A stretch of DNA of 64,000 nucleotides, taken from positions 1 through 64,000 of the forward strand of contig JALWBR010000039.1 of the NCBI GenBank assembly GCA_027037055.1, given 5' to 3'. The notes under the pieces are model-generated. The model worked only from the letters and a program-made list of their open reading frames with translations, had not been told where the DNA came from and did no database searches. The stretch comes from Aquificales bacterium. Lineage in GTDB: Bacteria; Aquificota; Aquificia; Aquificales; Aquificaceae. Position 1 is the stretch's first letter. Each line of letters begins with the position of its first letter. Below, piece after piece: positions 28,662 through 63,765 of this stretch. Position numbers and translations under genes: made by a program.

Positions 28662-31959
<3,298 letters not shown>

Positions 31960-45976: not shown

Positions 45977-46447
45977 TCAAAGTTTTATCTTTCCTTTAAA
46001 CTCCCTTTCAAGCTGTCTTCTGAGATCCTTTTCCCTCAATTCCCTGCGCCTGTCATGAAGTTTCTTACCCTTGGCAAGGGCTATTTCAACCTTCACCTTA
46101 CCGTTTCTAAAATAGAGTTTAGTAGGTATTAGGGTATATCCCTTCTCTTGCATCTTACCCCACAACCTCCATATCTCCCTTTTGTGGAGAAGTAACTTCC
46201 TTGTTCTAAGAGGATCCGGTGGTTTTACAGTGGAGAATTTGTAAGGAGCTATATAAAGGTTATAAAGCCAAGCCTCGCCGTCCTTTATCCTTACAAAACT
46301 ATCCTTAAAAGATACGCTTTGGCGATTTCTCAATGATTTTACCTCAGAACCCTCAAGAACAATACCCGCCTCATATCTCTCAAGTATCTCATATCTATGA
46401 CCCGCCTCCTTGTTAACTGCTATAATTCCGTCTCCCTTCTGTTTCAT
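45977..46447 (-). CDS. smpB: SsrA-binding protein SmpB
   Basis: Binds tmRNA and brings it to stalled ribosomes in trans-translation. It has IAVNKEAGHRYEILERYEAGIVLEGSEVKS at the N-terminus (given in parts: AVNKEAGH, GIVLEGSEVKSLR), LHKREIWRL in the middle, and the basic tail HDRRRELREKDLRRQ. ATG 46447 gives 156 residues, the usual length, and sits 7 bases after a minus-strand TATAAT. An ATG at 46456 would lie inside that -10 box. Confidence 0.95.
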   Translation of the reverse strand: MKQKGDGIIAVNKEAGHRYEILERYEAGIVLEGSEVKSLRNRQSVSFKDSFVRIKDGEAWLYNLYIAPYKFSTVKPPDPLRTRKLLLHKREIWRLWGKMQEKGYTLIPTKLYFRNGKVKVEIALAKGKKLHDRRRELREKDLRRQLEREFKGKIKL

Positions 46448-46454
46448 ATTTCCC

Positions 46455-46462
46455 ATTATAAT
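46455..46462. promoter_or_regulatory. Palindrome ATTATAAT serving as -10 box in both directions (smpB and AtpZ-like gene)
   Basis: The eight bases contain TATAAT on both strands (minus 46455-46460, plus 46457-46462). Minus-strand ATG 46447 is 7 bases away and plus-strand ATG 46471 is 8 bases away. Neither has a Shine-Dalgarno sequence. The most compact of several such sites in the window. Confidence 0.55.
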
Positions 46463-46470
46463 CTTTCCCG

Positions 46471-46665
46471 ATGAGGGGCAAAGATATTTCCGCCTTCGCA
46501 GTAGGCACACACATACTCGGAGGTATAATTGCGGGCATGATAATAGGTTACCTTATAGACAGATTCATAGGCACCTCACCGTGGGGACTGCTCATATTTC
46601 TCATAATAGGTATAATATCCGGCTTTTTAAACGCTTACAGAGAAATGAAAAAGGTGCTAAAATAA
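46471..46665 (+). CDS. AtpZ/AtpI-like small membrane protein
   Basis: 64 residues with two helices: THILGGIIAGMIIGYLIDRF and WGLLIFLIIGIISGFL. G-x3-G-x5-DRF(I)G followed by PWG is the pattern of the AtpZ family, which is linked to F0F1-ATP synthase assembly or Ca/Mg uptake. No atp operon genes are present nearby. It ends 8 bases before the IscU-like gene. Confidence 0.72.
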   Translation: MRGKDISAFAVGTHILGGIIAGMIIGYLIDRFIGTSPWGLLIFLIIGIISGFLNAYREMKKVLK

Positions 46666-46673
46666 ATATCACT

Positions 46674-47096
46674 ATGAAGGTGGCGGAGTATCTCAAGGAA
46701 GGACCCAAAAATATGGTTGAGGAAGCCCTTGACGGCTACAACAAAGTTGGAGAATTCAAATCAGGATGCCACAAAGTGAATATTATGCTAAAAGTTGAAA
46801 GGGGAAAGGTGAAGGATTGTAAATTTACCGCAACAAAAAGATGTAAGAAGCTCCTCGCGGTGGCGGATTATGTATGCGAAAATGTAAAAGGTAAATCCGC
46901 AAAGTCCCTATCCATAAGCGAGGAAGATATAGTCAGCTTTTTCGGAGACGAAAAGGAAACGGACAAAATAAAGAACAGGGCTGAGATCGTCCTCAATGCC
47001 TTAAATAACGCTTTGAACTCATCTGGTGAAAAGAAGGTGGAGAAAACATCAAAGGCAAAGAGGGGATGCGGAGCTAAGAAGAAAAAAACCTGTTAA
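46674..47096 (+). CDS. IscU/NifU N-terminal-like protein with basic Cys-containing tail
   Basis: About 140 residues. The first 80 resemble the IscU/NifU N-terminal scaffold fold (KVERGKVKDCKFTATKRC, then ENVKGKSAKSLS like the family's VKGKT-x-EEA helix). Cys residues are in SGCHKV, KDCKF, KRCKK and DYVCEN, but the canonical three-Cys spacing is not clearly kept. A Lys-rich tail ends RGCGAKKKKTC. It might be a degenerate Fe-S scaffold or a metal-binding relative. The ATG at 46674 is chosen; longer in-frame extensions run through smpB and AtpZ coding sequence. Confidence 0.55.
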   Translation: MKVAEYLKEGPKNMVEEALDGYNKVGEFKSGCHKVNIMLKVERGKVKDCKFTATKRCKKLLAVADYVCENVKGKSAKSLSISEEDIVSFFGDEKETDKIKNRAEIVLNALNNALNSSGEKKVEKTSKAKRGCGAKKKKTC

Positions 47097-47710
47097 TCAT
47101 AGCCTGCGCTATCAAATTCGTTTAAATCGCGGGCTTCCCCTACCCCGCCCCACGGTTTCTTTCCGTAAAAGATTGTCCCCTCTTCTTTTATATTACTGAA
47201 CTCAGCACCCGAAAATTTTGCCCTTCGCAAATCCGTGTTTATAAATATAACACCATCCAATTTTGCTCCCTCAAAATTTGCATCTTTCAAAAAGGCTTTT
47301 GAAAAATCTACTACCTCAAGTACGGCATTTCTGAAGCTTATCTCCTCACCCTTTATATTAGCAAACACCACATTTTTTATTCTGCTCTCCGAGAAATCCC
47401 CGAGACCTATAAAAGCATTCCTAAAATCTGAATCTTTTATGACCGCCCCCTTGAAGCTGACCCTCTGCAGGTTAGCATGATGAAAACTGGTACCGCTTAT
47501 AACGCATCCTTCAAAGGATGCGTCACTCAAAAAGGCTTCACCGAAATCAACCTCCGTTATATTAATCCCGTTAAAATTTGCACCCGTAAGGGTTGACCCC
47601 GAGAATATACAACCTTTGAGATCATAACCCCTGAAATCTTCAAAGGAAAGATCCATATTTGAAAAATCCCTTGTTGTTTCAATTATCTTGTTTACATCTA
47701 TCTTGCCCAT
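47093..47710 (-). CDS. Pentapeptide-repeat protein
   Basis: About 205 residues of tandem A(D/N)-[LF]-x-x-like pentapeptides (ANFNG, VDFGE, ASFEG, TSFHH, ANLQR, VSFKG, SDFRN, GDFSE, ANFEG) forming a right-handed quadrilateral beta-helix. No targeting signal is seen. Some family members mimic DNA and protect gyrase, but function cannot be deduced here. ATG 47710 is preferred to TTG 47731. The 3' end overlaps the convergent IscU-like stop by 4 bases. Confidence 0.85.
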   Translation of the reverse strand: MGKIDVNKIIETTRDFSNMDLSFEDFRGYDLKGCIFSGSTLTGANFNGINITEVDFGEAFLSDASFEGCVISGTSFHHANLQRVSFKGAVIKDSDFRNAFIGLGDFSESRIKNVVFANIKGEEISFRNAVLEVVDFSKAFLKDANFEGAKLDGVIFINTDLRRAKFSGAEFSNIKEEGTIFYGKKPWGGVGEARDLNEFDSAGYD

Positions 47711-47716
47711 GATATG

Positions 47717-47722
47717 TATAAT
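47717..47722 (+). promoter_or_regulatory. -10 box for mtnP in a 20-base divergent gap
   Basis: Perfect TATAAT ending 8 bases before the mtnP ATG (47731). The opposite strand offers TATACA (47715-47720), only 4 bases from the pentapeptide-protein ATG, so the minus-strand assignment is weaker. There is no ribosome site on the plus side. Confidence 0.45.
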
Positions 47723-47730
47723 TTTAACCA

Positions 47731-48564
47731 ATGCTCGGCGTTATAGGAGGAAGCGGACTTTACAAAATAGAAGGTTTTAAGAAAATTGATGAATTGGAAA
47801 TTGAAACCCCTTTCGGCGAACCCTCCTCCCCCATAATTATTGCGGAGTATGAGGGTAGAAATCTCGCCTTTCTTTCAAGGCATGGCACCGACCATAGCAT
47901 ACCTCCCCACCTTGTCAACTACAGGGCTAACATATGGGCTCTCAGGGAGGTTGGAGTTAAAAGAATACTCGGAATCGGAGCGGTGGGCAGTATAAATGAG
48001 AAAATAAAACCGGGTGATTACATAATAATTACTGATTTTCTTGACTTTACAAAATCAAGGAAGAGCACATTCTATGAAGGAAGATTCGGCAAGAAAGTAA
48101 AAGGAAAAGGAAAGGTTGAAGATCTGATAAATTCAAAAAGAGTTGTTCATGTGGACATGACAGATCCTTACTGTTCAGAGATAAGAGCCATACTTAAAGC
48201 CGTACTTTCAGAGAAGGGCTATCCTTTCAAGGAAAATGGTGTATATGTATGTACGGAAGGTCCCCGTTTTGAAACGCCTGCGGAGATAAGGGTATTTAAA
48301 AAATTGGGAGGAGATGTGGTGGGTATGACCGGATACCCTGAAGTGGTTTTGGCACGAGAGCTGGCACTCTGCTATGCATCCCTTTGCATCTCTGCAAATC
48401 CCGCGGCGGGTATAGCGGGTTACAAACTTACGAGCGAAGAGGTTATAAATATGATGAAGGCGAAGACAACCGAAATAGGTGAAATAATAAAGGCTCTCAC
48501 AATTAAAATTACCGATAAGCATTCCTGCGATTGCGGTAAAACCCTTGAGGGGGCGGGGATTTAA
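47731..48564 (+). CDS. mtnP: 5'-methylthioadenosine phosphorylase
   Basis: Cleaves methylthioadenosine to adenine and methylthioribose-1-phosphate in methionine salvage. 277 residues: GVIGGSGLY at the N-terminus, [19 protein letters not shown] (phosphate/ribose site), [16 protein letters not shown], and [22 protein letters not shown] phosphorylase is favoured over purine nucleoside phosphorylase by the SIPPHxVNYRAN pattern; a CDCGKT tail adds possible disulfide cysteines common in thermophile enzymes. The last 4 bases overlap the convergent korB end. Confidence 0.94.
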
Positions 48565-61749: not shown

Positions 61750-63240
61750 TTTTATACCGTACTTCTTTATCCTGTAGGAAACCTGCCTCGGCGTCATACC
61801 CAGGAGTTTTGCAGCCCTCTTTATAACATAACCGCTTTCAGCCAATGCCCTTTCTATCTGCTCCTTCTCCATCAATTCTATTGTTGAGGGAAGCTTCTTC
61901 CCTGCATAAGAAGTTTCCTCCTCAGCCCTTACCTTTTCCACACTTTCAATTATTTCCCTCGGTAAATCCCTCCTTCTTATAACACCGTCCGAAGAGAGGA
62001 TGACAAATCTCTCAATAAGATTTTGTAGCTCCCTGACATTACCGGGCCAATCGTATCTCGTTAGGATATCTATAACTTCGGGTTCAATAACCACCTCCTT
62101 CTTATATTCCTTTGTAAACTTATCAAGGAAGTAACCTATCAGAAGGGGTATATCTTCCCTTCTTTCCCTCAGGGGAGGTACGTATATGGGTATAACATTC
62201 AATCTGTAATATAGATCCTCCCTGAATTGTCCCTTTTCTACGAGCTTTTTAAGGTCCTTGTTGGTTGCCGCTATTACCCTTATATCAACCTTAATAACCT
62301 TGGTACTTCCGAGAGGCTCTATCTCCCTTTCCTGGAGTACCCTCAGTATCTTTGCCTGAAGGGGCAGAGGCATATCACCTATCTCATCAAGGAATATGGT
62401 TCCTTCATGGGCAAGGGCAAATTTCCCCTTCTTTGATACATAAGCACCGGTGAATGCACCCTTTTCATAACCGAAAAGTTCAGCCTCCAACAAATTCTCT
62501 GGAATTGCTGCACAGTTGACCTTTATAAAAGGTTTTGAAGCCCTCGGACTCAAAAAGTGTATAGCCCTTGCTAAAACCTCCTTTCCTACACCGCTTTCAC
62601 CCATAAGCAAGACTGTTGCGGATGTTTCTGCAACCTTGTGAACATTCTCAAGCACTTCCATTATGGCGGTACTTTTTCCTATAATGCCTTCAATCTTGAG
62701 ATTTGAATATACCCTTTTAAGTTCTATCTCCAACGCCTTTTTCTCATCCCTGAACTTCTGCCATGTCCTTACATGCTGGGCTATAAGGCCCGCCACCATA
62801 TTTAAAAATCTCAGGTAATCATCCATTGACTCCTTTTTTGTATATTCCCTATCACAGCTGAGCACCCCAATTACCTTACCCTCAACCTTCAAAGGTACAG
62901 CCATAAAAGCAATCTTTCCCTTTATATTTCTTTTCCACACCTTATTTAGAAACTCAGGCTCCTTTGATATATCAGGTATTATCATAGGTATTCCGTGTTT
63001 CCATACCTTCCCTATTATCCCTTCACCCTTTTTAAAACTGACCTGGGGAGCCTTTGTATTTGAAGTAGCCCTTACGACAAGCTCACCTGCCTCTGAATCA
63101 ACCATAGTAAGTGTAACCCTCTCAAATCCCATAAGCTTTTCAAGGAGCCTTAGTACATAAGGAAGGGATTTATCAACAGGTTCACCGCCGAGTACTTTGC
63201 TTATCTCATAAATAGCCTCTAATGCTAACTTCTCCTGCAT
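61741..63240 (-). CDS. Sigma-54-dependent activator of NifA type (GAF, AAA+, Fis HTH)
   Basis: 499-residue enhancer-binding activator. It has an N-terminal GAF domain (about 1-165), then a short linker. The AAA+ domain (about 185-420) has Walker A GESGVGKE, the sigma-54 contact GAFTGA, Walker [12 protein letters not shown], and the arginine finger region [13 protein letters not shown]. The C-terminal Fis-type HTH ([31 protein letters not shown], in part) resembles NifA. Nitrogen-fixation regulation is plausible since several Aquificae fix nitrogen, but no nif genes are visible here. Its start is 15 bases from the divergent ACT gene. Confidence 0.92.
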
Positions 63241-63242
63241 AT

Positions 63243-63252
63243 TATAATTATC
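63243..63252. promoter_or_regulatory. Overlapping divergent -10 boxes for the NifA-like (-) and ACT (+) genes
   Basis: TATAAT (63243-63248, plus) ends 7 bases before ATG 63256. ATTATC (63247-63252) reads GATAAT on minus and ends 6 bases before ATG 63240. The whole divergent gap is 15 bases. There is no ribosome site on either side. Confidence 0.5.
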
Positions 63253-63255
63253 ATA

Positions 63256-63765
63256 ATGAAAAGATATCTCCTTTTAACAGCAGGTCAAGACAGGCCTGGT
63301 ATAGTAGCGGATGTAACAAAGGTTCTGTACGAAAAAGGGTGCAACATAGAAGATTCATCAATGACCCGTATAGAAGACGAATTTGTAATAATGCTTATAT
63401 TCACGGGTGATATAAGATCGGAAGACTTTGATCACTTAAGGAAAGAGCTACTCATAGAATTGAAAGAATTGCCAGAGAGAAAAGAAATAAAGAAGTATCC
63501 AAACAAGTTTATAGTCTCCTTTTACGGTGGTGACAAGCCGGGTATAGTCTATCGTATATCCAGTAAGCTTAAGGAGAAGGGAGTAAATATATGTGATATG
63601 AGAACTAAAAGGACCGGCGGGGAAAGACCCATATATTTAATGACAATGGAGCTTGAAGCGGAAGATCATATAGATGAAAACATTTTAAAAGAAGAACTAC
63701 AACTCATCTCAAAAGAATTGAATATAGAACTCTCCTTATCACCCATTGAAGAGGTAAACCTTTGA
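63256..63765 (+). CDS. Double ACT-domain protein (GcvR-like)
   Basis: 169 residues composed of two ACT domains: [36 protein letters not shown] (about 2-80, quoted in part as [15 protein letters not shown]) and [33 protein letters not shown] (about 88-169). ACT pairs bind amino acids; GcvR in E. coli regulates glycine cleavage genes, but here the divergent neighbour is a NifA-like activator, so its partner is unknown. The stop overlaps the def start. Confidence 0.85.

Follow-up and report, generated by a model that had tools for sequence, protein, structure and literature searches.

Bidirectional promoters that arise from symmetric -10 elements were reportedly treated in E. coli by Warman and colleagues in 2021. 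Promoters of this type have already been described in E. coli (Warman et al. 2026) and in Salmonella (Middlemiss et al. 2023) (PMC12825309, PMC10268837). At the five bidirectional E. coli promoters that were tested, basal transcription is so low that the two directions do not compete, and they interfere with each other only on strong activation of one of them (PMC12825309). Leaderless genes, in turn, are known from the Aquificae, where TA-led genes make up 20.7-32.4% of the genes in the two genomes in which they were detected (Zheng et al. 2011, PMC3160421). The locus described here belongs to a hot-vent Aquificaceae bacterium and lies in a window of 64,000 nt of contig JALWBR010000039.1. Like the E. 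coli and Salmonella promoters, it carries overlapping -10 hexamers on both strands; like the TA-led genes of Zheng et al. (2011), which come from the same group, its genes have a TATAAT-type signal some 10 bp ahead of the start codon and no Shine-Dalgarno (SD) sequence. We consider it probable, on sequence evidence, that the locus is a bidirectional, -10-only housekeeping promoter that gives two leaderless mRNAs.

A putative shared box between smpB and an AtpZ-like gene

The two genes are divergent, and the gap between their ATGs at 46447 (smpB, minus strand) and 46471 (AtpZ-like gene, plus strand) comprises 23 bases (46448-46470). Read along the plus strand, positions 46445-46473 consist of CAT (46445-46447), ATTTCCC, ATTATAAT (46455-46462), CTTTCCCG and ATG (46471-46473). 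The consensus TATAAT is present on both strands of ATTATAAT, the two hexamers being offset by 2 and having 4 bp in common (Table 1). A sequence-only reading of the window had pointed to this shared 8-base palindrome with TATAAT 7 and 8 bases from the ATGs, and both its coordinates and its distances are correct; the 23-base gap that it gave is confirmed on recounting for the smpB ATG at 46447, and, in line with its statement that neither gene has an SD, no usable one precedes either start. On the plus side, the 29 nt that lead up to the AtpZ-like ATG contain a single G, at -1, which leaves no possibility of an SD, and on the smpB side the sole SD-like stretch is GGGA, 3 nt from the ATG. A -35 element could not be recognised at the palindrome in either direction.

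Both products have Pfam matches, to ATPase_gene1 over residues 8-57 of the AtpZ-like protein (2.8e-15) and to SmpB over the full length of the SmpB protein (residues 12-154, 1.2e-57). The AtpZ-like start is fixed by an in-frame TAA upstream (46459-46461) with no start codon between, and the N-terminus M[RK]GKD is conserved in most Aquificaceae homologues. The gene that follows (46674-47096) has no Pfam match and a Lys- and Cys-rich C-terminus, KRGCGAKKKKTC, and it adjoins the AtpZ-like gene throughout the genus.

Table 1. Features of the smpB/AtpZ-like locus and the two other pairs with exact ATTATAAT close to both starts
Feature	Position	Strand	Basis or remark
smpB, favoured start ATG 46447 (alternative in-frame ATG 46456)	45977..46447	-	Pfam PF01668; homologue N-termini
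AtpZ-like small membrane protein (ATPase_gene1), 64 aa	46471..46665	+	Pfam PF09527; start fixed
ATTATAAT palindrome, 8 bases; putative overlapping -10 elements for both directions	46455..46462	.	Sequence; identical in 4/4 species of genus
TATAAT, putative -10 for AtpZ-like gene, 8 nt before ATG 46471	46457..46462	+	Spacing fits genome-wide 7-8 nt peak
TATAAT, putative -10 for smpB, 7 nt before ATG 46447	46455..46460	-	Spacing fits genome-wide 7-8 nt peak
Spacer CTTTCCCG, 8 nt, without SD, variable within genus	46463..46470	+	Sequence; genus comparison
Spacer GGGAAAT (minus strand), 7 nt, no SD at usable spacing, variable within genus	46448..46454	-	Sequence; genus comparison
Exact ATTATAAT between purC and carbohydrate phosphorylase	L216 9017/9044	divergent	Genus g9
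Exact ATTATAAT between GNAT acetyltransferase and nfeD	L251 1800/1823	divergent	Genus g5

Spacing statistics and compact divergent pairs

The palindrome is not rare in itself, as the window holds 2 copies of ATTATAAT against 3.65 expected; we therefore dropped its rarity as evidence, and what is unusual is its position. To place that position, we used a partial sample of the host genome (708 kb, 647 called starts) and 400 kb from each of four other Aquificaceae genera (G004, G007, G011 and G013), which together form a five-genus set of partial samples. Genes were called by our own simple in-frame hexamer model, whose choice of starts is imperfect and whose ATG scoring bonus might matter slightly; its start errors should blur TATAAT peaks, not create them. 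In the host, the distance from exact TATAAT to the start is 7 nt in 9 genes and 8 nt in 13, amounting to 22 of the 647 genes, over a background of about 1 per position further upstream, and a TATAAT peak at 6-9 nt is also found in the four other genera. The same peak is missing in our outgroup control, a single genome from another family of the order (G036), which is SD-rich (60% SD-like starts). Across the five genera, an SD-like motif accompanies 3 of the 124 starts that have exact TATAAT 6-9 nt away, compared with 889 of the 2041 others. Leaderless genes should show just such a near-exclusion, which also fits the published share of TA-led genes in Aquificae (PMC3160421). The leaderless-type promoters of the family show no -35 enrichment (16/124 versus 17/124 at a shifted control position). 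Both starts at the smpB/AtpZ-like locus have the sequence features of this type, with TATAAT at 7 and 8 nt, within the genome-wide peak, and no SD.

Divergent genes in the five genera are often packed closely: of 276 divergent pairs, 83 have a start-to-start gap of at most 35 bp, with a mode at about 20-30 bp, versus 2 of 40 in G036 (Fisher p = 4e-4). SD-like motifs occur at 7% of the compact divergent starts and at 34-35% of the other divergent starts (Fisher p = 1.7e-13), and 46% of compact-pair starts have a -10 match at 6-9 nt. Among the 69 gaps of 13-35 bp, 21 carry on both strands a -10 at leaderless spacing, whereas dinucleotide shuffles of these gaps (200 runs) give 2.5, with a maximum of 8; the smpB/AtpZ-like pair falls outside the 21 because the gene caller took the upstream smpB ATG. 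The registers of overlap vary, the commonest offsets being -4, -1 (the 18-bp class of the literature), +2 (the ATTATAAT register) and -3. Exact ATTATAAT at 6-9 nt from both starts, expected 0.06 times in the 69 compact gaps, was seen twice in addition to the smpB/AtpZ-like case, in unrelated gene pairs of two other genera. Genome-wide spacing, SD near-exclusion and recurrence in other genera lend good, though indirect, support to the earlier proposal of one -10 shared by two leaderless genes.

Other compact pairs are present in the window. The only other ATTATAAT (63240-63256) again lies between divergent genes, 15 bases apart, which encode a GAF/sigma-54 activator (minus) and an ACT-domain protein (plus); TATAAT is 7 nt from the plus ATG and GATAAT 6 nt from the minus ATG, and the gap is identical in two relatives. 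At 30368-30397, a compact divergent pair that includes NAD synthase (minus) has TATAAT (minus) and TAAAAT (plus), each 8 nt from its start, and a spacer with one change in two relatives. At 47710-47731, 20 bases separate the starts of a pentapeptide-repeat gene and a nucleoside phosphorylase-family gene, and TATAAT lies 8 nt upstream of the plus ATG.

An alternative, which we regard as unlikely, is that only one direction is a real promoter. The reverse match would then simply follow from the symmetry of the -10, and the other gene would be transcribed from a promoter within its neighbour. AT stands before TATAAT in 21 of the 124 leaderless-type promoters, so about one-sixth of them are palindromic with no need for a reverse gene. 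Moreover, a second exact TATAAT, with TG before it, is located inside smpB (46421-46426, plus strand); it could serve the AtpZ-like gene, which would then have an SD-less leader of about 38 nt, and this, along with the want of a recognisable -35, counts against a bidirectional promoter. However, both starts lie at the preferred 7-8 nt spacing, and in other genera TATACT or TATATT precedes the AtpZ-like gene by 8-9 nt (L046, L042; TATACT at 8 nt in L046). The TATAAT inside smpB, for its part, is accounted for as smpB coding sequence, and G002 has lost the TG in front of it.

The smpB start and the history of the pair

An earlier in-frame smpB ATG (46456-46454), missing from the sequence-only reading, overlaps the palindrome. 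If smpB started there, the gap would be 14 bases, the minus-strand TATAAT would run into the start codon, and smpB would depend on a promoter within the AtpZ-like gene, with the palindrome serving as the -10 of the plus gene only. The frame is indeed open to 46510 with ATG 46456 in frame, and an MGNM or MGYM N-terminus can be read in other members of the genus too. Even so, we judge this start highly improbable. In most smpB homologues of related genera, the start lies a single residue ahead of the second ATG (M-AKQTGEHIIAVNKEA in L004, MSKDSGKHIIAVNKEA in L006), for which reason 46447 is favoured. TATAAT stands directly against the start codon in only 2 of the 647 genes, and no good minus-strand promoter is found inside the AtpZ-like gene, where the best match is 9/12 (46631-46603). 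In another genus (L006), smpB has its own TATAAT, 6 nt from the start. In L014, again of another genus, in the region immediately upstream of position 1501, smpB has another divergent neighbour, which may encode a lipoprotein, with ATTATAAT between the two, 14 nt from the smpB ATG.

It is scarcely credible that the palindrome, symmetric as it is, acts as the binding site of a dimeric regulator, instead of or besides a promoter box, since its 8 bases are few for an operator and correspond to a pair of overlapping consensus -10 boxes, and the 33 ATTATAAT sites in 708 kb, many of them inside genes, are unrelated to one regulon.

The sequence-only reading had also suggested asking whether the palindrome is kept in relatives, those with named records being Aquificales/Aquificaceae MAGs. 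All 4 of the available species of the genus retain it unchanged, while the spacers vary at 3 of 15 sites (0/8 versus 3/15). A palindrome that persists while its spacers change agrees with constraint, albeit in a statistically weak way, as so few variable spacer sites leave the comparison little power. The contrast is too shallow within one genus for conservation to be used as decisive evidence, and we set it aside in that role. The -10 hexamers of the other window pairs (30368/30397 and 63240/63256) are likewise kept in relatives, which adds little.

The divergent smpB/AtpZ-like arrangement was seen in the host's genus only, and on this ground we rejected a conserved functional pairing of smpB and AtpZ. 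Some other genera have a leaderless-type box before smpB or the AtpZ-like gene singly. The pair thus seems to be peculiar to this lineage, in which two leaderless genes came to lie side by side around a single box, and it does not look like an old coupling of the two functions.

Proposed mechanism and relation to described promoters

Under the bidirectional promoter that we favour, a sigma-70-type holoenzyme would bind the palindrome in either orientation. In one orientation, RNA is predicted to start at the AtpZ-like ATG or up to two bases from it (46469-46471); in the opposite one, it would start at the smpB ATG or one base from it (46448-46447), which places the two predicted transcription starts 21-24 bp apart. 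With RNA starts at or next to the ATGs, both mRNAs would be leaderless or nearly so, and ribosomes would initiate at the 5' AUG itself. The geometry of the overlapping -10 elements suggests that the two bound polymerase states exclude each other. The sequence-only reading went further and had transcription of smpB and the AtpZ-like gene compete, which is not supported as stated, given that the five E. coli promoters show no competition at the basal level (PMC12825309); what survives of it is the proposal of one -10 serving both leaderless genes.

Neither bidirectional promoters with a symmetric -10 nor leaderless Aquificae genes are new in themselves. What appears to be new is their routine combination into compact pairs, as we found no description of compact divergent leaderless pairs on a symmetric -10 as a regular arrangement in a search that excluded most subscription journals. 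We lean, by a little, towards the view that such compact head-to-head pairs are the standard divergent arrangement in Aquificaceae, where about 30% of divergent pairs are compact, many of them probably on one overlapping -10 without leader, SD or -35. Leaderless mRNAs need no space between promoter and start codon, so leaderless translation would allow this packing around one -10, and it would tie the initiation of both genes together. If this is true, a whole bacterial family routinely packs divergent genes around one -10 box, and both the trade-offs of overlapping -10 elements between gene pairs outside E. coli and the general evolution of compact divergent pairs in leaderless lineages become testable. 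Start-codon annotation in Aquificaceae would also improve, since TATAAT 6-9 nt upstream marks the start.

Among the described systems, Zheng et al. (2011) take TA-led genes singly and mention neither one -10 for two divergent leaderless genes nor the word "bidirectional". In Deinococcus-Thermus, another phylum, a -10 box adjoining the ORF yields a leaderless mRNA, as proposed here (Zhong et al. 2025); that study is without any mention of divergent, bidirectional, opposite or palindrome. In one 50-kb stretch of Thermus thermophilus pTT27, we observed a divergent pair of cobT and a histidine phosphatase gene with a 26-bp gap (L278 42511-42538), hinting that compact leaderless pairs may exist in that phylum too. 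The bidirectional TATA promoters of Pyrococcus furiosus also use one element for both strands in a hyperthermophile, but they differ in relying on archaeal TBP/TATA, in a distance of 49 bp between transcription starts, and in producing antisense RNA in a head-to-tail context (PMC6640164).

The closest comparison remains with the E. coli and Salmonella promoters. There, one polymerase binding event excludes the other, as we infer for this locus. The predicted distance of 21-24 bp between transcription starts falls within the 7-25 bp range of the Salmonella study, and distances of 18, 10 and 23 bp are common in E. coli. The commonest register (18 bp, with -7T and -11A reciprocally paired), which is preferred and not required, is not the one found here, where ATTATAAT gives 21 bp at ideal spacing. 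Unlike those promoters, the locus has the 8-bp ATTATAAT register, with hexamers offset by 2, and is without a recognisable -35. Finally, whereas the divergent RNA in Salmonella is often antisense and non-coding, both transcripts predicted here start at protein-coding start codons.
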